Source: an uncultured bacterium | GTDB taxonomy: Bacteria > Bacteroidota > Rhodothermia > Rhodothermales > UBA10348 | DNA length: 64,000 bases | NCBI GenBank assembly: GCA_943788505.1 | Contig: CALSQR010000002.1 | Location: forward strand, 379,323-443,322 | Direction of reading: 5' to 3' | Shown: positions 6,833-19,449 of the stretch, one piece after another | How the letters are laid out: each line of letters starts with the position of its first letter | How positions within the stretch are numbered: the stretch's first letter is position 1 | The notes under the pieces: generated by a model | What the model saw: only the letters and a program-made list of their open reading frames with translations | What the model was told of the DNA's origin: nothing | Databases searched by the model: none | Program-made: the position numbers and the translations under genes

Positions 6833-7741
6833 ATGCAAGAGATTCTGGAAAACCCGTTTTCGACTCATCTATTGATCACCGCTGTGATCATTTTGATAGG
6901 GTTTGTAGTCGTCAGACTGAGCCACCGTGTTTCGCGCCGGTTCCTCGATGACCCGGAGCGCATTTATCGATCGACCAAATCTACTCGGCGAACGGTAGCT
7001 TTTCTGGCTATCATCGCGATTGCCATCGTCTGGTCGCCCGGCTTTGGGGATCTGCTCACGCTCATTACCGTCATTGGTGCTGGTCTGGCTATCGCCCTGA
7101 GAGAAGTACTGCTCTCCATCGGTGGCTGGGCCCGGATTTCCCTGATGACGTCGTTTCGCGAAGGTGATCGCATCGAGATAAATGGAATCCGAGGCGATGT
7201 CATCGACATTCGGGTATTACGAACAACCCTCATGGAAATCGGTGGTTGGGTAGATGCCGATCAGAGCACTGGCCGAATAGTCCATTTTCCAAACAGCTGG
7301 ATCTTCCAGCATGGCCTATTCAACTATACGCGTTCGTTCAAATTTATCTGGAACGAAATTCCGTTTACCTTGACCTACCGCAGTAATTGGCGCGCAGCTC
7401 GAGACATTATTATGTCATATGCTGAGGAGTCTGCGACTATTGTAGAGCAGCAGGCTCGCCAGGAAATACAGCAGATTTCCCAGCAGTTCCTAATTCATTT
7501 CTCTGTACTGACTCCATTCGTGTATGTGCGAATCGTTCCTGACGGTGTTCAACTCACGCTGCGCTACCTGTGCGAAGCCCGCAAACGTCGAGGTTCTGAG
7601 CATGCAATGAATCTGGTTGTGCTCGATGCATTCAAAGATCATCCCGAGATTGAGTTGGCACACAGATCATTAATGGTACGTCCTCCCGATGCACGGCAAT
7701 TCGGAGACTTGCCTGCTCCGCCTGATCACGCAGATCCATGA
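6833..7741 (+). CDS. MscS-family mechanosensitive channel
   Basis: This 302-residue membrane protein has three N-terminal helices (residues ~10-28, ~49-64 and ~68-90). The last contains VIGAGLAIALREVLLSIGGW, the glycine/alanine-rich pore helix pattern of MscS. The beta domain follows with FREGDRIEINGIRGDVIDIRVLRTTL and FPNSWIFQHGLFNYTR, both standard MscS blocks. The start is set at ATG 6833; an in-frame TTG two codons earlier is less likely. It should release solutes on hypo-osmotic shock. It is monocistronic as far as visible: the trp promoter begins only ~30 bp after its stop, and a small GCGG/CCGC hairpin near 7753-7766 lacks a U-tract. Confidence 0.9.
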   Translation: MQEILENPFSTHLLITAVIILIGFVVVRLSHRVSRRFLDDPERIYRSTKSTRRTVAFLAIIAIAIVWSPGFGDLLTLITVIGAGLAIALREVLLSIGGWARISLMTSFREGDRIEINGIRGDVIDIRVLRTTLMEIGGWVDADQSTGRIVHFPNSWIFQHGLFNYTRSFKFIWNEIPFTLTYRSNWRAARDIIMSYAEESATIVEQQARQEIQQISQQFLIHFSVLTPFVYVRIVPDGVQLTLRYLCEARKRRGSEHAMNLVVLDAFKDHPEIELAHRSLMVRPPDARQFGDLPAPPDHADP

Positions 7742-7769: not shown

Positions 7770-7798
7770 TTGCCCTATCAAGCAGACGACGCTATCTT
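7770..7798 (+). promoter_or_regulatory. Putative trp operon promoter
   Basis: TTGCCC at 7770-7775 and TATCTT at 7793-7798 are separated by exactly 17 bp, a sigma-70-type arrangement with 4/6 matches at each element. TTG-N20-TATCTTTA also fits the Bacteroidota -33/-7 style. Transcription would start around 7804-7806, at or just before the ATG of the trp leader peptide, so the leader mRNA may be nearly leaderless. This is pattern-based; an upstream promoter inside the MscS gene is possible. Confidence 0.4.
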
Positions 7799-7805
7799 TA
7801 TCTCA

Positions 7806-7886
7806 ATGACTCATCTCAGTACCCATATCGCTTCTGTCTCCCACGGTTGGTGGTGCAGCCGCTCCAGCGGGTACGTGTCTGAATGA
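7806..7886 (+). CDS. trpL: trp operon leader peptide with tandem Trp codons
   Basis: A 26-codon open frame starts at ATG 7806 and ends at TGA 7884-7886. It reads MTHLSTHIASVSHG, then WW, then CSRSSGYVSE. Trp is rare, and two consecutive TGG codons (7848-7853) in a short frame just upstream of trpE and just ahead of a strong terminator are the signature of a leader peptide that senses charged tRNA-Trp. Stalling at the TGG pair would cover the left arm of the following hairpin (7859-7862). No Shine-Dalgarno is visible, and the putative -10 box ends only 7 nt upstream. The peptide is presumed to have no function beyond being translated. Confidence 0.75.
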   Translation: MTHLSTHIASVSHGWWCSRSSGYVSE

Positions 7887-7928
7887 ATGGCCGGCTTTAG
7901 CCGTCCCCATCTGATCTGCACAGCCCGT
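7859..7928 (+). promoter_or_regulatory. trp attenuator: competing pause and antiterminator pairings
   Basis: Three alternative pairings can be drawn. CCGC 7859-7862 pairs with GCGG 7867-7870 across a TCCA loop and would act as the pause/1:2 hairpin right after the Trp codons. GCGGGT 7867-7872 can instead pair with GCCCGT 7923-7928 (four GC pairs plus two G-U), which would destroy the terminator stem. A small CGGC/GCCG hairpin (7892-7903) lies between. A ribosome stalled at the TGG pair would mask 7859-7862, free 7867-7872 and favour antitermination. The logic matches classical trp attenuation; pair strengths were judged by eye. Confidence 0.6.
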
Positions 7929-7952
7929 AACCTCTTGGTTTCGGGCTTTTTT
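7922..7952 (+). terminator. Intrinsic terminator of the trp attenuator
   Basis: AGCCCGTAACC (7922-7932) pairs with GGTTTCGGGCT (7937-7947) around a TCTT loop, giving ten pairs with one T-T mismatch. The transcript then has six U residues (7947-7952). It lies 35 nt after the leader peptide stop and 61 nt before trpE, so it must be read through for the operon to be expressed. Among the terminator-like structures in the window, this has one of the clearest U-tracts. Confidence 0.8.
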
Positions 7953-8013
7953 GTTGTTCATGCTTCTGCATCCACTATTTCCTTTTACTTCATTTTCGAT
8001 CACGTCTAGCTGA

Positions 8014-9501
8014 ATGCTCTCTCTTGACGAATTTAAGGACCTTCTCGTCACCTACCGGACCTTCCCCGGAGAACGGATCATCATTCCACTGCACCGCCGC
8101 AGAAGTGCCGATCTGCTGACACCGGTAAGTGCGTTTCTGCAACTTCGAAAAAATGCTCGGATGCCGTTCCTTTTCGAGTCAGTGGAGGGCGGAGAAAAGA
8201 TGGCGCGGTACTCGTTCCTTGGCCGCAATCCCTACATGACCGTGACGGCTGAGGGCGAAAATACCCTCTTAGAAAGGGGTGGCCAAGCGCAGTCGCTCAA
8301 CAAACCTGTCTTCGATGTTCTCTCCGAACTCATGGCTACCTATCGGGAGATCGAAATACCTGATTTACCTCGACTAACCGGTGGAGCCGTCGGGTACTTC
8401 TCATACGATTGTGTTCGTTTAATCGAGCGACTCCCAGATTCAAACTCTTCTAGCGATCAGTTGCCAGATGCAATCTGGGCCTTTCACGATACAATTTGTG
8501 CATTCGATCACGTCAAACATCAGCTCGTGTTGATCGCCAGCGTATTTCTGGATGAGGATACAGATCCAGAACAGGCATACATGGATGCCTCTGCGAGATT
8601 GGACACGCTAGAATCTGCTTTTTCGAACACGGTTCGTCCTGATACAGCGCCTGTGCGTCTCGATGCCGATATCCGTTCGAATGTTGAGAAGGAGGAATTC
8701 GAAGCAGCCGTAGTAAAAGCCAAACACCATATCCATGAAGGGGACATCTTTCAGGTTGTCCTATCTCAGCGATTCTCTACGGGCTATTCCGGAGATCCGT
8801 TCAATTTATATCGGGCGCTACGCCAGGTGAATCCATCACCGTATCTGTTTTATCTCGAATTCGGTGATTTTAGACTTGTTGGATCCTCACCGGAAGTCCT
8901 TGTCCGCGTCGAAAACAGAAAAGCTGAGCTCCTTCCTATTGCCGGCACCCGCCCTAGGGGCGCTTCTGCGCAGGAGGATGCAGAATTGGCCGAAGAGCTC
9001 TTGGCAGACCGAAAAGAACGGGCTGAACACCTGATGTTAGTGGACCTCGGTCGTAATGATCTGGGCAGGGTAAGCAGCTACGGATCTGTTGAAGTTGAGC
9101 GATACGCATATATCGAGCGCTACTCGCATGTAATGCATATTGTATCCTCTGTAGCATCCCGCTTGGCGGACGGTTTTTCGTCAATGGATGCACTGAAAGC
9201 ATGTTTTCCAGCTGGAACGGTGTCGGGAGCACCGAAAGTGCGAGCCATGGAAATTATTGATGACCTAGAGCCAACTCGCCGAGGTCCGTACGCGGGCGCA
9301 GTAGGGTACCTGGACTTCCGAGGTAATCTTGACACGTGTATCACGATCAGAACCATGATCGTCACCGAAGACACAGTACATTTTCAAGCTGGAGCCGGAA
9401 TCGTAGCTGATAGTGTGCCCTCTTCCGAGTACGAAGAAACGTTAAACAAGGCCCGCGCACTAAGAAGCGCTATGAACATGGCCGCATCGGACCTTTTGTG
9501 A
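8014..9501 (+). CDS. trpE: Anthranilate synthase component I
   Basis: This 495-residue chorismate-utilising subunit converts chorismate plus ammonia to anthranilate. The N-terminal feedback site shows FLFESVEGGEKMARYSFLG (about residue 52), the region where Trp binds in TrpE. The catalytic domain has DIFQVVLSQRF, SPSPYLFYLEF-type residues (PSPYLFYLEFGD), LPIAGTRPRG and GTVSGAPKVRAMEIID (~405). The retained Trp-site motif and the trp context favour TrpE over PabB. It is first in the operon, and its glutaminase trpG lies three genes downstream rather than adjacent. It is expressed through the attenuator at 7806-7952. Confidence 0.97.
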   Translation: MLSLDEFKDLLVTYRTFPGERIIIPLHRRRSADLLTPVSAFLQLRKNARMPFLFESVEGGEKMARYSFLGRNPYMTVTAEGENTLLERGGQAQSLNKPVFDVLSELMATYREIEIPDLPRLTGGAVGYFSYDCVRLIERLPDSNSSSDQLPDAIWAFHDTICAFDHVKHQLVLIASVFLDEDTDPEQAYMDASARLDTLESAFSNTVRPDTAPVRLDADIRSNVEKEEFEAAVVKAKHHIHEGDIFQVVLSQRFSTGYSGDPFNLYRALRQVNPSPYLFYLEFGDFRLVGSSPEVLVRVENRKAELLPIAGTRPRGASAQEDAELAEELLADRKERAEHLMLVDLGRNDLGRVSSYGSVEVERYAYIERYSHVMHIVSSVASRLADGFSSMDALKACFPAGTVSGAPKVRAMEIIDDLEPTRRGPYAGAVGYLDFRGNLDTCITIRTMIVTEDTVHFQAGAGIVADSVPSSEYEETLNKARALRSAMNMAASDLL

Positions 9502-9595
9502 TGCTTTTTAAACGATTTGTTCAAGCGCCGGACAACCTCCTTGCGGTATCTTGCGACTTGCTATCTCCACCATTTTCAATCGCCGACTGAGCGCC

Positions 9596-10030
9596 ATGGG
9601 TATCAAGGAACTGTTTTTACAGAAAGGCTGGGCTGGTCGCACCATCGACCGGGCACAAACTATTGAGCGGATCAACCCCATGATCCACACAATGAATGAG
9701 CTCATGCAGTTATACAACGCTGCAGAACCAAAAAATGATACGCTCAGGACGGGGCTAGATGAAAGCCTACGCACGCTGAGAATGGACATTGGGAAGATGT
9801 GCGAAATCGTGTTTTCATGCGGTGGCGTGGCCTACAACGGTACTGACCTGAATCCGGCGGACTTCCGTCTAGGAGATAAACTATCTGCAGCCATCGAGAA
9901 GAAAGAAGAGCAGTTGACTCAGGCCCTTTCCGAGGAAGGACGCATCGAACACCAAATGCGGTCCAGAGCTATCCTAATGAATGTTGACGTTAACCAGAAA
10001 ATGCGCCTGAATACGGTGCGTGGCCTCTGA
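9596..10030 (+). CDS. Conserved-looking unknown protein inside the trp operon
   Basis: This 144-residue soluble protein starts at ATG 9596 (MGIKELFLQKGWAGRT); the frame extends 15 codons further upstream without a better start. It looks mostly helical, with a cluster MIHTMNELMQLYNAA, then DESLRTLRMDIGKMCEIVFSCGG, then a charged coiled-coil-like LSAAIEKKEEQLTQALSEEG. It has two Cys and no signal peptide. It sits between trpE and trpS on the same strand, and its stop is 16 nt before the preferred trpS ATG. I do not recognise a family. Its place within a biosynthetic operon makes a role in Trp metabolism or translation possible, but nothing in the sequence says so. Confidence 0.65.
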   Translation: MGIKELFLQKGWAGRTIDRAQTIERINPMIHTMNELMQLYNAAEPKNDTLRTGLDESLRTLRMDIGKMCEIVFSCGGVAYNGTDLNPADFRLGDKLSAAIEKKEEQLTQALSEEGRIEHQMRSRAILMNVDVNQKMRLNTVRGL

Positions 10031-11072: not shown

Positions 11073-11654
11073 ATGGTTCTCATTATCGACAATTACGATA
11101 GCTTCACGTACAATCTGGTGCACCTTGTGGCCCAGGGAACGGATGATCTGCAGGTCCACCGCAACGATACGCTAAGTCTCGAGGATATTGAATCTATGAT
11201 GCCTTCGGGGATCCTCATTTCTCCAGGTCCAGGTCGGCCAGCTGAGGCTGGTATCACTTGCGATGTTATCCGCACGTTTGGAGGCCGAATCCCGCTACTC
11301 GGGGTATGCTTGGGACATCAGGCAATTGGAGAAGTCTATGGCGGTGATGTGACGTACGCCTCTCGGCTGATGCATGGCAAAACCAGTGAAGTCCATCATG
11401 ATGGAATGGGCGTCTTTACTGGTGTTTCTAATCCGTGCGTTGCTACCCGATACCACAGTCTAGTCATTGACCCTGCAACCATACCCTCTGTTTTGAGTGT
11501 TTCAGCTCGCAGCGAAGATGGAACGATCATGGGTGTTCGACACGAAAACGGCCTGGTAGAAGGAATTCAGTTCCATCCGGAAAGTCTTCTCACAGAAGAA
11601 GGTCCGCGCATGATTGCTAATTGGATGAGCACATTGACGATACAGGCTGCCTGA
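11073..11654 (+). CDS. trpG: Anthranilate synthase component II (glutamine amidotransferase)
   Basis: This 193-residue class I glutamine amidotransferase supplies ammonia to TrpE. It begins VLIIDNYDSFTYNLVH, has the nucleophile Cys in LLGVCLGHQAIGE (about residue 76-80), and the His-Glu pair in IQFHPESLLTEEG (~170). The oxyanion region SPGPGRPAEAG is present. It starts 6 nt after trpS. As in many bacteria it might also serve para-aminobenzoate synthesis, but the operon context argues for tryptophan. Confidence 0.96.
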   Translation: MVLIIDNYDSFTYNLVHLVAQGTDDLQVHRNDTLSLEDIESMMPSGILISPGPGRPAEAGITCDVIRTFGGRIPLLGVCLGHQAIGEVYGGDVTYASRLMHGKTSEVHHDGMGVFTGVSNPCVATRYHSLVIDPATIPSVLSVSARSEDGTIMGVRHENGLVEGIQFHPESLLTEEGPRMIANWMSTLTIQAA

Positions 11655-11706
11655 TCCGACGCACATCATAGCATAGTAACATCAAAGCAAAAAACTCCTA
11701 AGACCA

Positions 11707-12738
11707 ATGAAGGACCTGCTGACAAAGTTGGTGGAACACCGCCCGCTTACTAGAGACGATGCCGCGGGTGCGATGCAAGAAATGCTCTCGGGCAACGCCT
11801 CCCCGGAACAGATTGCAGGGTTTTTGCTGGGCATTCGTGCTCGCGGAGAAACACTAGACGAACTCGTCGGCATGACGCAGACTATGCGCGAGTTTGCGGT
11901 CCCAGTCTTGGCGCCGGCGCATGCCATTGATATCGTTGGAACCGGCGGAGACCGTAGCGGATCATTCAACGTCTCGACGACAACAGCTTTCGTCTGCGCC
12001 GGCGCCGGAGCCATCGTTGCAAAACATGGCAATCGTTCTGTTTCGTCCAAGAGTGGTGCTTTCGATGTTCTAAGCGCTCTTGGTGTTCAGACCAATCTTG
12101 GCAAAGCTGGAGCTGAATACTGCCTTGAACATGCAGGAATGGCGTTTCTGTTCGCTCCTTTCTTCCACCCAGCAATGAAGCACGTTCAGCCAGTACGCAT
12201 CAAACTGGGCGTGCGAAGCGCATTCAACATTTTGGGCCCATTGTGCAATCCTGCCGGTGTTAAACGCCAGTTGGTGGGCGCCTTTTCGCTTGATGTTGCC
12301 CGTATGATGGTAGAAATACTTCACGCCTTGGGTTCGGAATCCATTGCATGTGTGCACGCAGACGATGGTATGGATGAATGTTCGATCAGCTCGCCAACTA
12401 CTCTTTTTAGTTTCTATGCCGCGGGTGACCCCATCCTCGAAGAAACCATCACTCCAGAACAGTTCGGATTGGAGCGAGCACCTCACGAAGCCATCCTTGG
12501 TGGCGATGGAAATCGCAATGCTGTCATTTTGCGAGAGATTCTCTCCGGGCAAGCTGGCGCACCCAGGGATATCGTGCTTTTCAATGCTGGTATTGCCCTG
12601 CGTTGTGCAGGTAGTGCTTCCTCGATAGAAGAAGGAATCGCACAGGCTGCCGAAAGCATCGATTCTGGCAAGGCATTGGCTGCTTTGGACGGTCTAATTC
12701 GCGCAAGTCAGGATGCACCACCGCTAGAGGTGGCCTGA
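11707..12738 (+). CDS. trpD: Anthranilate phosphoribosyltransferase
   Basis: This 343-residue enzyme transfers phosphoribose from PRPP to anthranilate. The PRPP-binding loop GTGGDRSGSFNVST is near residue 78, KHGNRSVSSKSGA near 103, and the anthranilate-site block HVQPVRIKLGVRSAFNILGP near 158. The hinge and C-terminal domain run to the expected family length. A 52-bp spacer separates it from trpG, and trpC begins 5 nt after its stop. Confidence 0.96.
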   Translation: MKDLLTKLVEHRPLTRDDAAGAMQEMLSGNASPEQIAGFLLGIRARGETLDELVGMTQTMREFAVPVLAPAHAIDIVGTGGDRSGSFNVSTTTAFVCAGAGAIVAKHGNRSVSSKSGAFDVLSALGVQTNLGKAGAEYCLEHAGMAFLFAPFFHPAMKHVQPVRIKLGVRSAFNILGPLCNPAGVKRQLVGAFSLDVARMMVEILHALGSESIACVHADDGMDECSISSPTTLFSFYAAGDPILEETITPEQFGLERAPHEAILGGDGNRNAVILREILSGQAGAPRDIVLFNAGIALRCAGSASSIEEGIAQAAESIDSGKALAALDGLIRASQDAPPLEVA

Positions 12739-12743
12739 TTTGT

Positions 12744-13544
12744 ATGATTGCGTCCATTCGGGATACCATACTTGGGCAGATTGTTCGTGACACGGAGGCG
12801 CTTGTTGCGAGTCGAAAACGTGACATTAAACGTTCCGACCTGGAGTCCATGGAGGGATTCGAGCGCGTACCCTTATCCTTAGCAGACGCCTTGCGCGCAA
12901 AAGGGCTTTCGATCATTGCAGAAGCCAAGAAAGCTTCCCCTTCCAAGGGTGTTATAAGGGAATCGTTTGATCCCATTAAGATCGCGATGGCGTATCAAAA
13001 AGCTGGTGCAGCGGCTATCTCGATGTTGACGGAGCCGTTGCATTTCCAAGGCAGCATTGACTTTCTACAACTCGTCAGGCCTGAACTCCAGATTCCCCTC
13101 CTGAGAAAGGATTTCATTATTGACCCGTTCCAACTGCTTGAAGCAAGGGCCTATGGTGCGGATGCTGTGCTTCTAATCGCCAGTTGCCTCGAGCGCCCTC
13201 ATCTAGCTGAACTCCAAGAAGCAGCTCGTGAACTGGAGTTATCCGTACTCCTCGAACTTTACGACCCCCGAGAATTGGATCGAGTCGATATGGACAGTAC
13301 AGAGATCATTGGTGTAAACAGCAGAGATCTACGCACGTTTGAGGTGGATCTAGATGGCGCACTCTCCGTTCTTGGAAGCCTTCCTAGCTCTATTGTGCGA
13401 GTGGCGGAAAGCGGTCTTCGTGATGTTGACGACTTTGTGAAAGTGCGCGATGCGGAGATCGACGCAGCCCTCGTAGGAGAAGCATTTATGATTGAGGACG
13501 ATCCTGGGGCAGCCCTCGAACGACTGAAGGAGGAACTGGCATGA
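12744..13544 (+). CDS. trpC: Indole-3-glycerol phosphate synthase
   Basis: This 266-residue TIM-barrel enzyme closes the indole ring from CdRP. Diagnostic blocks are IAEAKKASPSKGVIRE (about residue 58), LRKDFIIDPFQLLEARAYG (~118), LLELYDPRELD, IIGVNSRDLRTFEVDL (~187) and VAESGL. The N-terminal ~45 residues (VRDTEALVASRKRD) form the usual extra helix. Its stop overlaps the trpF start by 4 nt (ATGA), so the two are translationally coupled. Confidence 0.96.
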   Translation: MIASIRDTILGQIVRDTEALVASRKRDIKRSDLESMEGFERVPLSLADALRAKGLSIIAEAKKASPSKGVIRESFDPIKIAMAYQKAGAAAISMLTEPLHFQGSIDFLQLVRPELQIPLLRKDFIIDPFQLLEARAYGADAVLLIASCLERPHLAELQEAARELELSVLLELYDPRELDRVDMDSTEIIGVNSRDLRTFEVDLDGALSVLGSLPSSIVRVAESGLRDVDDFVKVRDAEIDAALVGEAFMIEDDPGAALERLKEELA

Positions 13545-14179
13545 CACATATCAAAGTCTGCGGAATAACAAACCTGGCCGATGCACGATATGCATCAGGT
13601 GCTGGAGCGGATTTCCTCGGATTCATACAGCATCCAGAAAGCCCTCGCCATATTGAGCCAGGACTGGCTCGCGACATTATCGCATGGGTGTATGGATCGA
13701 AAAGCGTTGGTGTTTTCGTGGATTGCCCTGCTGACGAAGTCAATGGAATCTGTGATCGAGTAGGCTTCGATTTCGTGCAATTACACGGTTCAGAAACTGT
13801 AGCCTACTGCCACACAATTGATCGTCCAATCATCAAAGCTTTCAAAGTGTGGAATCACACTGAGGCTGCGGAGCTGGAAATGGCGATGGAAGCGTACAAA
13901 GACGTCGCTGAATATTTCCTACTGGATACCGGATCAGCAACTGCGGCCGGCGGTACAGGTGAGTCGTTCGATTGGAAGGTGGTTGAAGATATCGTCGTGT
14001 CCAGACCGTTTTTCCTTGCCGGAGGCCTGTCCCCAGACAATGTGGCCGGTGCGGTTGATCGAGTCAAACCATTTGGGTTGGATGTCAGCAGCGGGGTTGA
14101 AGAATCGCCAGGCATTAAGGACTTTGGGCGCATTGACACGTTCATCGAGCAAGCTCGGGGAACGGTTTCCAATCGTTGA
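13541..14179 (+). CDS. trpF: Phosphoribosylanthranilate isomerase
   Basis: This 212-residue TIM-barrel enzyme isomerises PRA to CdRP. It opens with KVCGITNLADARYA, with the general-base Cys, then has FLGFIQHPESPRHI, VGVFVDCP, VQLHGSETV, LLDTGSATAAGGTGESFDW with the acid Asp, FFLAGGLSPDNV and GLDVSSGVEESPGIKD at the phosphate-binding end. It overlaps trpC by 4 nt. A GCAGCA/TGCTGC hairpin at 14191-14207, without a U-tract, lies in the ~110-bp spacer before trpB and might tune expression of the trpB-trpA pair. Confidence 0.96.
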   Translation: MTHIKVCGITNLADARYASGAGADFLGFIQHPESPRHIEPGLARDIIAWVYGSKSVGVFVDCPADEVNGICDRVGFDFVQLHGSETVAYCHTIDRPIIKAFKVWNHTEAAELEMAMEAYKDVAEYFLLDTGSATAAGGTGESFDWKVVEDIVVSRPFFLAGGLSPDNVAGAVDRVKPFGLDVSSGVEESPGIKDFGRIDTFIEQARGTVSNR

Positions 14180-14288
14180 TCCGGAACCGCGCAGCACCGT
14201 TTGCTGCTCAGACAAACGGGGTCAGTGCCGCCGCACTTCCCAATTTGATCTGCTCAATTATTTACAAGACGCGTAGACATATTTGCCA

Positions 14289-15515
14289 ATGGGCACCTTA
14301 GATACATCGCCTTCAAATGCGCCTTCAGTCGCGCCGTACGATTTGCCCGATTCACGCGGGTACTTCGGCGAGTTCGGCGGATCATTCGTTCCCGAAATCT
14401 TGGTCCCGGCGCTGGGAGAACTGACGAATGCTTTCGACGAAGCTCTCCATGATCCGGCCTTCCAAGCTCGGTATCATAGTCTACTCAGAGACTATGTTGG
14501 ACGGCCAACCGCACTAACATTTGCCGAGCGCCTTACCGCCCATTTCGGAGGTGCCCGCATCTATCTCAAGAGGGAAGATCTTTGTCACACAGGTGCACAC
14601 AAGATCAACAACGCCATCGGGCAGATCCTTCTTGCTCGGCGCATGGGTAAAACGCGCATTATCGCGGAAACAGGTGCTGGGCAACATGGTGTTGCGACTG
14701 CGACTGTATGTGCCCGATTCGGTATGGAGTGCATCGTGTATATGGGAGCCGAGGACATGGAGCGACAACGCCTCAATGTCCACCGAATGAATCTTTTAGG
14801 AGCCGAAGTCAGACCGGCAACAAGTGGGTCTCAGACTTTGAAAGACGCCACAAATGAGGCTATCAGAGACTGGGTGACAAACGTCAGGGATACTTTCTAC
14901 ATCATTGGATCGGTGGTTGGGCCTCATCCCTACCCAAGAATGGTTCGTGCCTTTCATACCGTCATTGGCGAGGAGGTCAAAGCGCAGCTTGAGTCACGAG
15001 AGGGCCGGCCGAACCCGGACATCTTGATCGCCTGCGTAGGTGGTGGGTCAAATGCCATTGGACTCTTCCATCCCTTCCTGGATGACAAAAACGTTCGTTG
15101 CGTCGGCGTGGAAGCATCAGGAGAAGGACTTGAGGGCCGTCATGCTGCGACGCTGACGCTGGGCACTCCCGGGATCCTTCATGGTGCTTTGTCCTATTTG
15201 CTGCAAGATGATCAAGGCCAGATAGAGCTGGCACATTCAATTTCTGCTGGCCTTGACTACCCAGGGGTAGGTCCAGAGCACGCGTGGCTAAAACAGTCAG
15301 GCCGAGTGGAATACATTTCTGCCACTGACACCGAGGCAATGGAGGGTGTAAAGCTGCTTTCCAGAACCGAAGGTATCATTCCTGCGCTTGAAACCGCTCA
15401 CGCAATTGCAGGGCTGTCTCAAATTGCACCTGGAACTCCACACGACGAATTGATCGTTCTTAATTGCTCGGGTCGTGGGGATAAAGACATGCAGACTATC
15501 GCGGAGGCTCTTTAA
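14289..15515 (+). CDS. trpB: Tryptophan synthase beta chain
   Basis: This 408-residue PLP enzyme condenses indole with serine. The N-terminal [15 protein letters not shown] block, the PLP-Lys in [17 protein letters not shown] (about residue 100), [15 protein letters not shown], and the phosphate-binding [14 protein letters not shown] (~245) are all present, as is ECR-type [13 protein letters not shown] near the C-terminus. ATG 14289 is chosen over a TTG two codons earlier. The stop codon overlaps the trpA start by one base. It is the standard TrpB1 type that partners TrpA. Confidence 0.97.
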
Positions 15516-16333
15516 TGTCGCATTTCTCAGATCTGCTTAGCCAGGTAAGCAAACGAGGCGAGCGCTCCCTCGGCATGTTTGTGACGAGTGGGTTTCCGGA
15601 TATGAAAGCTACGCCTGACTTGTTACGGGCAATTGATGCCGGCGGCGCGGACTTCATCGAATTAGGCATGCCATTTAGTGACCCTCTCGCCGAAGGATTA
15701 CCTATTCAGCGATCCAGCGAGCGGGCCCTCAAGAACGGCGTCACAATGCAGGCAACCTTGGCGTTCGCCAAGGAATTCACGAGTCAGTCAGAAACTCCCC
15801 TTCTCTTGATGGGATACGGAAACCCGGTGATGCGCTACGGGATCAGCAACTTTTTCCGTGATGCTCGCTCTTCAGGTGTACAGGGTGTCATCTTACCAGA
15901 TGTCCTGCCAGCGGAGGACTCACCCTTCTTTAAGGCAGCTAAGGGGCACGATGTGGATCTTGTCTGCCTGATTTCTCCGACCACTCCTGAGGCACGCATG
16001 GCGTTGATTGATGAAATGTCCTCAGGATTCGTGTATGCTGTCTCTGTGACTGGCATTACGGGTACGGATACTGGAGATGCTTCACCGATCCTTTCGTACC
16101 TGCGACAGGCAAAGGCGACTATGCGAAAGAACCCGCTACTGGTCGGATTCGGAATCCGGACGGCAGCCGATGTCAGGCAGCTTTCCGAACATACAGATGG
16201 AGCTATTGTGGGCTCAGCCCTCATTAACCACATCGAAGCCTTGTGGAATGATATTTCGATTTCAACCGAAGATCGGCTCAAATCAGTTGAGACATTTGTC
16301 CGAGAGTTGAAAGCGGGAACGCTCGCCTTATGA
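15515..16333 (+). CDS. trpA: Tryptophan synthase alpha chain
   Basis: This 272-residue TIM-barrel enzyme cleaves indole-glycerol phosphate to indole and G3P. The catalytic Glu is in FIELGMPFSDPLAEGLPIQ (about residue 49), and the second acid is in GVILPDVLPAED (~127). SPTTPEARM, YAVSVTGITGT and VGFGIRTAADV follow in the expected order. It starts at the last base of trpB. Its stop overlaps the start of the DUF4837 lipoprotein gene (ATGA), so the transcript continues. Confidence 0.97.
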   Translation: MSHFSDLLSQVSKRGERSLGMFVTSGFPDMKATPDLLRAIDAGGADFIELGMPFSDPLAEGLPIQRSSERALKNGVTMQATLAFAKEFTSQSETPLLLMGYGNPVMRYGISNFFRDARSSGVQGVILPDVLPAEDSPFFKAAKGHDVDLVCLISPTTPEARMALIDEMSSGFVYAVSVTGITGTDTGDASPILSYLRQAKATMRKNPLLVGFGIRTAADVRQLSEHTDGAIVGSALINHIEALWNDISISTEDRLKSVETFVRELKAGTLAL

Positions 16334-17957: not shown

Positions 17958-18890
17958 TTATTCAGGGCGCGCCTGGCAGTGGTCACATCGGTTACATTGC
18001 GCCGGTGCTAGTTCTCCAAAGTATCCCAGCAAGCCCCATCGTCTACACATGGACCGATCTACCCAGCGAATGAACGGCCGATAGAGTCGTAACGCCCTTC
18101 GTCTAGCCTTCCAAGTCCCCTTCTCGATCAGAGACTCTCGTGTTTTTCGTCCATCAGGGGAATCAAAGAGAATAGCTTGGGCGGGCCGGCCGTCCCGGCC
18201 GGCCCGCCCAGCTTCTTGATAATAAGATTCTATAGAATCAGGCATGCCAGTGTGCGCGACTAAGCGTACATCGGGACGATCGATACCCATCCCGAAAGCG
18301 TTCGTGGCCACCATTATCTGTGTCTTTTTACGCATCCACCTCCGTTGCATCACTTCCCGCATAGATTTTGACATTCCCCCGTGGTACGCGGAACACGTAA
18401 ACCCAGCTCGCTCCAACTTCGCTGCTCGGATTTCTACGCCCTCACGCGACGCTTCATACACAATGATTGCTCCTTTTACCCCTTGAAGCTCCCTCACAAG
18501 TCCCGGATGCGGATCCACAACTCGATGAACCCCAATGGTAATATTGGTCCGCTCGAACGAAGCTTTCACGATGGTTGGGTGATCTAGACCCAATTGCCGG
18601 CAGATGTCTTTAACTACTCTAGGTGTCGCGGTGGCGGTAAAGGCTGCCATAACAGGGTTTCCAGCTGCACGAGCATCGGGGGGGATATTGGCTAAGGCTG
18701 GGGCGGTAGCGGGTAGCGGTAGCGGTAGCGGTAGCGGTAGCGGTAGCGGTAGCGGTAGCGGTAGCGGTAGCGGTAGCGGTAGCGGTAGCGGTAGCGGTAG
18801 CGGGGACCTGAAGATTACTGCGCAGATTGGCAATCCTGCGGAATGCAGGACGAAAATCGTGCCCCCATGAACTGATACAATGAGCCTCAT
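17958..18890 (-). CDS. recQ: RecQ helicase, C-terminal piece (frameshifted)
   Basis: The recognisable sequence begins just after the hexanucleotide tract (below about 18711). It has [19 protein letters not shown] (motif III), [30 protein letters not shown] (motif V), [14 protein letters not shown] (motif VI), then a zinc-type Cys cluster [12 protein letters not shown]...CNRCDHC. There is no RQC winged helix or HRDC, so it is a short RecQ. The N-terminal ~60 residues of this frame (a Leu-Pro repeat and the stretch before it) are an out-of-frame reading of the N-terminal piece. Removing one C at 18711 joins both pieces into one continuous ~490-residue helicase. As written, the gene is broken. 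Confidence 0.8.
18178..18210. repeat. Perfect GC-rich hairpin inside recQ
   Basis: Bases 18178-18192 are the exact reverse complement of 18196-18210: 15 bp, all GC except one terminal pair, with a 3-nt TCC loop. It encodes helicase motif VI ([12 protein letters not shown]), which is conserved, so the palindrome was made by codon choice rather than by an inserted element. With one bulged base an adjacent AGCT/AGCT can extend it by four pairs. Confidence 0.85.
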
Positions 18891-19449
18891 CTACAACAAC
18901 CATGGTTGGTGACCTAGCGTCAAGAAGCCCGTTAAGTAGTGGCATTCCTATGCGTTCAGGCGCCGTATATAGCAGGAAATGATCTGACTCCCGGATTCGT
19001 TTGCCTAGCCATGCAGCAACACCTCTATCGATCCTCCCAGAAAGAGCAAAGCAAGGCACTCCTCGTCCAGACAAGGCCGCTACCTGATCCTGCATTAGAG
19101 AAATCAGCGGTGAAACAACAACCGTCAGCCCACCTAGAAAGATTGCTGGTACTTGAAAGGCTATAGACTTGCCGCCTCCCGTGGGAAGAAGCGCGAGCGT
19201 GTCTCGTCCCTTCAAAATGGACTCGATGGCCTGGAGTTGATCAGGTCGGAAATCTGCATAACCCCAAACAGACTGGAGAACCATTCTAGCTCGCTCAACT
19301 TCATTCGCTAGAAATGAATCGCGGTCGTTTATTAAAGCAGAATCAGGAGGGTCCGAATTAGGAATGTCAGAATCAGGAGATGACCATCCCCATCGCCCCC
19401 AATCCTTTCTGAATGTCCGAGGCCACTGTACTTGGCTCTTTACCATCAA
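18619..19449 (-). CDS. recQ: RecQ helicase, N-terminal piece (frameshifted)
   Basis: This frame carries the first helicase motifs of an ATP-dependent 3'-5' DNA helicase: [15 protein letters not shown], Walker A LPTGGGKS (residue ~88), [11 protein letters not shown], and DEAH in [20 protein letters not shown] (~186). Right after NLRSNLQVP it enters 15 Ala-Thr pairs (residues 217-246) encoded by the GCTACC repeat. It then reads an extra base into nonsense ([12 protein letters not shown]) and stops. The frame is open to 19449, overlapping aroK by 77 nt; an internal ATG at 19284 ([12 protein letters not shown]) is a plausible true start. The partner piece is 17958-18890. Confidence 0.8.
18705..18801. 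repeat. GGTAGC hexanucleotide tandem repeat, 15 units plus one
   Basis: Fifteen uninterrupted copies of GGTAGC run from 18712 to 18801 (90 bp). One further copy lies at 18705-18710, offset by a single extra G at 18711. Read on the coding strand it is GCTACC, giving Ala-Thr in the frame of the recQ N-terminal piece and Leu-Pro in the frame of the C-terminal piece. Unit length is a multiple of three, so changes in copy number lengthen or shorten the protein without shifting frame; the lone extra base is what breaks the gene. Confidence 0.97.

Follow-up and report, generated by a model that had tools for sequence, protein, structure and literature searches.

Evidence for a ribosome-mediated transcription attenuator in front of the trp operon of a Rhodothermales bacterium

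Introduction

Attenuation of the trp operon through the translation of a short leader peptide has long been known from E. coli, and the locus described here raises the question of whether control of the same kind operates in front of trpE in a member of the Rhodothermales. The locus lies in a stretch of 64,000 nt, referred to below as the window, which belongs to a genome of 2.75 Mb in two contigs. A survey from 2010 considered leader-peptide systems unknown outside Proteobacteria and Actinobacteria, and itself added the Firmicutes (PMC2965389). In Flavobacterium psychrophilum, a member of the same phylum if this is taken broadly, amino acid operons were reported to be preceded by structured 5' regions that hold clues to leader peptides, and attenuation was suggested in general terms; the section concerned does not name a trp leader (PMC9723704). 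A literature search found no description of a trp attenuator for Rhodothermota, and an earlier comparative prediction for the lineage is possible; the novelty of the present case is limited to a new occurrence of a known attenuator type. The element examined below is very probably a ribosome-mediated transcription attenuator of the trp operon, and its anatomy, its conservation, the coevolution of its strands and its geometry relative to the ribosome were each established by computation.

Anatomy of the leader and the operon

An initial annotation, made from the letters of the DNA, had described a 26-codon frame with two adjacent TGG codons, a 4-bp hairpin directly behind them, a strong terminator with six U and a competing pairing that would break this terminator, and had read the whole as classical trp attenuation. 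The elements of the leader are arranged in the window as follows:

7806-7886, + strand: trpL leader peptide ORF (MTHLSTHIASVSHGWWCSRSSGYVSE), 26 codons with the stop TGA at 7884-7886, read directly; WW or WWW is kept in relatives
7848-7853, + strand: tandem Trp codons TGG TGG, the control codons (W15/W16)
7859-7870, + strand: 4-bp hairpin CCGC-UCCA-GCGG, from folding, a possible 1:2-type protector hiding part of the antiterminator strand
7867-7878, + strand: 5' strand of the antiterminator (strand A), GCGGGU..GUGU, within the leader ORF, from folding and coevolution
7889-7906, + strand: hairpin (GG-CGGC..GCCG-CC) lying in the A-B loop and fitting inside the antiterminator, from folding
7918-7928, + strand: strand B, partner of A in the antiterminator or, from 7922, of strand C in the terminator
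7922-7952, + strand: intrinsic terminator with its stem at 7922-7947 and its U tract at 7947-7952 (six T in DNA)

The frame had been described exactly, with its ATG at 7806, and in the list of open reading frames it is nested in a longer TTG frame (7770-7886). The hairpin behind the TGG pair is real, at -4.5 kcal/mol, and 3 of 200 shuffles were equally stable; the terminator is as strong as had been claimed, since its stem folds at -15.7 kcal/mol where shuffles average -5.3 (z -5.2), and none of 200 shuffles was as stable. A terminator scanner overlooked the hairpin at 7922-7952 owing to interior mismatches in the stem, while direct folding detects it. Strands A and C have the same sense, and either can pair with B. 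The RNA from 7864 to 7934 folds as an antiterminator in which the competing pairing of 7867-7872 with 7923-7928 is indeed present, lengthened by a second block (7875-7878 with 7918-7921) and enclosing the loop hairpin; in the window this pairing and the terminator are mutually exclusive.

Taken singly, some of these elements are unremarkable. The TGGTGG motif alone is uninformative, with 54 copies in the window against 30 expected, and the A:B duplex of the window is among the weaker ones, being matched in strength by 67 of 200 shuffles. A pattern of TGGTGG with a T run gave 16 matches in the genome itself against 9 with the reversed pattern, and only the trp one is readily recognisable as a leader. 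The case for an attenuator rests on conservation and not on the strength of the antiterminator in the window.

The genes behind the leader were named with NCBIfam and Pfam, and their order is trpE-(159-aa gene)-trpS-G-D-C-F-B-A:

8014-9501, + strand: trpE, anthranilate synthase component I (TIGR00564, 583 bits, above cut-off)
9551-10030, + strand: conserved 159-aa protein, function unassigned, within the operon; homologues occupy the same place in L032, L034 and L037-L039
10020-11066, + strand: trpS, tryptophan--tRNA ligase (TIGR00233)
11073-16333, + strand: trpG, trpD, trpC, trpF, trpB and trpA (NCBIfam/Pfam), the probable remainder of the controlled operon

The 159-aa protein had no Pfam or NCBIfam match, and its gene between trpE and trpS is present in some Rhodothermales and missing from others. 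The trpS of the operon was the single match in the genome, making it the only copy found, and trpS lies within the trp operon in all 9 Rhodothermales loci with sufficient flank, whether the attenuator is present or not.

Conservation of the leader in relatives

The initial annotation had proposed an alignment of trpE upstream regions from related genomes. Such regions were collected from the same order, giving 80 assessable loci, and with the further loci described below the TGG pair, the antiterminator strand and the terminator prove to be conserved class-wide; the opposite outcome, in which the pair or the stems are unconserved in relatives, was looked for and did not occur. Of the 80 loci, 51 have a short ORF that contains TGG TGG in frame and a T run that lies 88-122 nt downstream of this pair; the 51 loci span 12 families (f1, f2, f3, f6-f9 and f11-f15). 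All 51 of these WW leaders have a terminator; over the 80 loci, WW occurs by itself in none, the terminator by itself in 9 and neither in 20 (Fisher p = 3e-12), and the combination of WW with a terminator exceeds chance. The leader peptides of the order have little in common beyond WW or WWW. Outside the order, 20 loci from six more families in the class were compared; a WW leader is present in 19 of them, nearly always as WWW, and among 20 loci from other classes of the phylum W-rich leaders precede trpE in L204, L206-L208, L212-L215, L217 and L220.

Several of the loci with only a terminator resemble worn or altered leaders, with WGW in L148, WPW in L112, separated W codons in L141 and a single W in L145 and L147. 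The WW leader is absent where trpE, its start estimated from alignment, comes close behind an mscS-like gene (L004, L013, L014, L017, L018, L023, L119, L144 and L151); L004 is a species of the window's own genus. A large genus of family f15 is likewise without a leader. As about 20 genomes of the order are without the element, the attenuator is dispensable.

A separate observation concerns the flavobacteria-like loci L213 and L214, where the A strand seems to match the loop and the 3' arm of the terminator and not its 5' arm, which would be a different topology.

Coevolution of the pairing strands

When strands A and B of the leaders are set in a fixed register, 6.62 of 8 positions form standard pairs, against 6.12 +/- 0.09 for permuted partners (maximum 6.50 in 1000), a permutation that ignores relatedness. 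Changes on both sides of the pairing are seen at position -2 (C-G in 21, U-A in 12) and at position -3 (G-C in 20, A-U in 6). The comparison was repeated with one leader per family, for 18 families, and gave -19.7 kcal/mol for the own duplex against -14.5 kcal/mol for swapped ones, with 0 of 20,000 permutations as low. These comparisons indicate that the antiterminator and terminator strands coevolve. In the window itself, B is not the best partner of A among the families, and the pair is one of the less specific.

Ribosome position and the choice between structures

The ribosome was modelled as 27 unpaired nt, made up of the first A-site base, the 15 nt before it and the 11 nt after it, and the RNA was cut just behind B to imitate the moment of decision. 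Over 50 leaders, the mean probability of the A:B pairing, P(A:B), was 0.70 when the A site held the first Trp codon and 0.65 and 0.59 at the next two codons, and it was 0.18 at +4, 0.10 at +5 and 0.06 at +6. The difference in P(A:B) between Trp codons and later positions was 0.59, against 0.06 when the segment from WW to B was shuffled (p = 2e-22), and in this difference the leader of the window exceeds 12 of 12 of its own shuffles. A similar course is followed by the 19 WW leaders from outside the order (0.71 at the Trp codons, 0.24 at +5 and 0.16 at +6) and by E. coli trpL, the positive control (0.52-0.56 at codons +1 and +2, 0.00 from +4). The scan of stalled and advanced ribosomes thus places the Trp codons at the switch point: as modelled, a ribosome on these codons frees the antiterminator, and a ribosome four or five codons further on blocks it. 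With the ribosome on the stop codon the A:B pairing is only partly blocked, with a mean P(A:B) of 0.33 and a value of 0.24 in the window.

Equilibrium folding of the full leader gave a mean terminator probability of 0.93 in the free RNA, 0.76-0.79 with the ribosome at the Trp codons and 0.94 at the stop, and about 0.95 in the window at every ribosome position; when the complete terminator is included in this way, no switch is visible in most leaders, as a kinetic decision would lead one to expect. Since termination is favoured at equilibrium in most leaders regardless of the ribosome, the switch must be decided during transcription. Conservation, coevolution and the modelled ribosome geometry together support the classical reading that the initial annotation had given to this leader.

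A predicted promoter directly before the leader ATG

The following elements of a predicted promoter lie beyond what the initial annotation had found:

7770-7773, + strand: predicted -33 promoter element, TTGC, with conserved spacing in leaders
7793-7800, + strand: TATCTTTA, predicted -7 promoter box of the TAnnTTTG type, at a conserved position before the leader ATG

This promoter, of the form TTG-N20-TAnnTT, belongs to the Bacteroidota type, which accounts for the lack of a match in a generic sigma-70 scan. When 69 leaders from the class are aligned on the leader ATG, 62 have a TAnnnT that begins 7-16 nt (mostly 12-16) before this ATG and a TTG 23-24 nt upstream of the TAnnnT, against 1.7% in the control with shifted positions; the stricter TAnnTT box is found in 49 of the 69. 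Taking the box position reported for F. psychrophilum (-12 to -5; PMC9723704) as a ruler, the predicted start falls at the leader ATG or up to ~4 nt before it, at ~7805 in the window, 1 nt ahead of the ATG, and as the promoter box stands directly before the ATG the trpL leader mRNA is probably leaderless. Bacteroidota are mostly without Shine-Dalgarno sequences, and the conservation of a predicted promoter immediately ahead of the leader ATG connects leaderless initiation with attenuation in a way that can be tested. In the genome itself the leaderless-promoter pattern has 6 matches against 4 in the control, trpL being the sole leader peptide among them, and no second leader peptide with a leaderless-type promoter was found there.

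The report on F. psychrophilum places the promoter box at -12 to -5 and gives leaderless mRNAs as rare, at 5.5% (PMC9723704); in B. thetaiotaomicron 5' UTRs of <10 nt make up about 3.7%. A leaderless trpL has been reported from S. meliloti (PMC7298713) and S. lividans (PMC8079986). In family f15, L114, L116, L121, L125, L136 and their relatives are without a trp leader, and in several of these loci a GCGTATAA-like stretch is conserved no more than ~15 nt from the trpE ATG, as if trpE were itself leaderless.

Proposed mechanism

Transcription would begin at the leader ATG or no more than 1-2 nt from it, with the ribosome probably initiating on the 5'-terminal AUG. When charged tRNA-Trp is scarce, the ribosome would stall on W15/W16 and cover the RNA roughly as far as the Trp region extends; during the stall strand A (7867-7878) would be free and would pair with B (7918-7928), the terminator could not form, and the operon from trpE through the 159-aa gene and trpS to trpA would be transcribed. 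When charged tRNA-Trp is ample, the ribosome would advance onto A and leave B to C, the hairpin at 7922-7947 would form, and transcription would stop in the U tract near 7952. The transcription start, the translation, the termination and the tryptophan response of the leader are thus all predicted events. Expression of trpS would likewise come under the attenuator and, as the sole trpS lies inside the operon, tryptophan supply and tRNA charging would be raised together.

Alternative explanations

The leader has an mscS-like gene upstream of it on its own strand, with the stop at 7741, and this gene is a frequent neighbour in relatives too. The hairpin might be taken as the terminator of the mscS-like gene and the WW frame as chance. 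Such an arrangement is very improbable, as the hairpin stands 88-122 nt behind the TGG pair in the 51 leaders, even where no mscS homologue was found in the stretch of flank examined, a promoter and an ORF intervene between the mscS-like gene and the hairpin, and where mscS abuts trpE the WW and almost always the hairpin vanish together; the association of WW with the terminator and the coevolution of A and B contradict it as well. T-box and TRAP are both established solutions for trp operons in Firmicutes, but there is next to no chance that either controls the present one. No Rfam family matched over the window at the gathering threshold and no T-box is listed at E up to 10; the leader (7806-7952) has zero GAG and one UAG, against the ~11 (G/U)AG triplets needed for TRAP. 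The sole notable sub-threshold Rfam match is RF00513 Trp_leader at 7842-7954, with 24.5 bits (E 0.0065) over the full model length against a gathering score of 41, a result that implies that such leaders are missed by standard Rfam annotation. Termination would also release a short RNA, and in Sinorhizobium meliloti the leaderless trpL RNA and its peptide (rnTrpL/peTrpL) act in trans (PMC7298713). That the RNA or peptide of the window should act chiefly in this way is highly improbable, as the peptide is barely conserved besides WW, which points to the codons and not to the peptide sequence, and action in trans would add to attenuation, not replace it.

It is also conceivable, though unlikely, that the attenuator has two states and no working protector, so that untranslated RNA is prone to read-through and any slow or absent translation is sensed, not tryptophan alone. 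Without a ribosome, P(A:B) averages 0.49 over the leaders of the order and is 0.45 for that of the window, compared with 0.00 for E. coli, which suggests that an E. coli-type 1:2 protector hairpin is not a conserved part of these leaders, and stalls upstream of WW likewise leave A free. Free-state values range from 0 to 1 across relatives, but about a dozen leaders lie at <0.1 and so have a protector, the window carries its own protector hairpin of 4 bp, and whole-leader equilibrium folding favours termination.

Ribosome-mediated attenuation with the Trp codons as its switch point remains the preferred reading, and a wider form of it may be put forward tentatively, its parts being taken jointly. 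A leaderless attenuator variant would be common to the trp operons of Rhodothermota and apparently to much of the Bacteroidota; the ribosome would start on an AUG at the very 5' end while the RNA is still emerging, with A often within the ORF; a protector hairpin would be unnecessary, the untranslated RNA leaning to read-through; and the leaderless start would be an ancestral, functional design in the phylum, not an accident.

Comparison with known leaders

E. coli trpL resembles the leader of the window in having a WW leader before trpE, an A strand that lies ~20 nt downstream of the first Trp codon, A:B and B:C hairpins that exclude each other and a U tract, and it behaves alike when scanned with the modelled ribosome. 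The E. coli leader stop comes ahead of strand 2, whereas strand A of the window lies inside the ORF and the stop comes 36 nt behind the first Trp codon; a stop codon behind strand A is shared by the window and most relatives of the order, where the distance of the stop from the first Trp codon is 24-63 nt, and an earlier stop is seen in some other families of the class. The strong 1:2 protector of E. coli is a further difference, this feature being variable in Rhodothermales.

In the trpLE(G) system of S. meliloti, trpE(G) is likewise preceded by a leader peptide, and the attenuator RNA starts at the trpL ATG (PMC7298713); this system differs in phylum, in promoter type, in its 14-aa peptide and in having three separate trp operons, and its leaderless start was measured while that of the window is predicted. 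Streptomyces trpL1 (MFAHSTRNWWWTAHPAAH) also stands before trpE and combines a WWW leader, leaderless transcription and a terminator (PMC8079986), but trpE is monocistronic there and trpS has a leader of its own, trpL2, whereas trpS of the window lies inside the trp operon. The class-wide trp attenuators would extend ribosome-mediated attenuation to Rhodothermota, with more examples in other classes of Bacteroidota.

Another locus in the window

Apart from the trp operon, a RecQ-like helicase at 17958-19449 (- strand) is present as two overlapping frames, one with the DEAD part and one with the Helicase_C and zinc-binding part. The split falls at a hexanucleotide array, GCGGTA x 16.7 (18703-18803), and represents a frameshift, a phase-variable switch or an assembly error.
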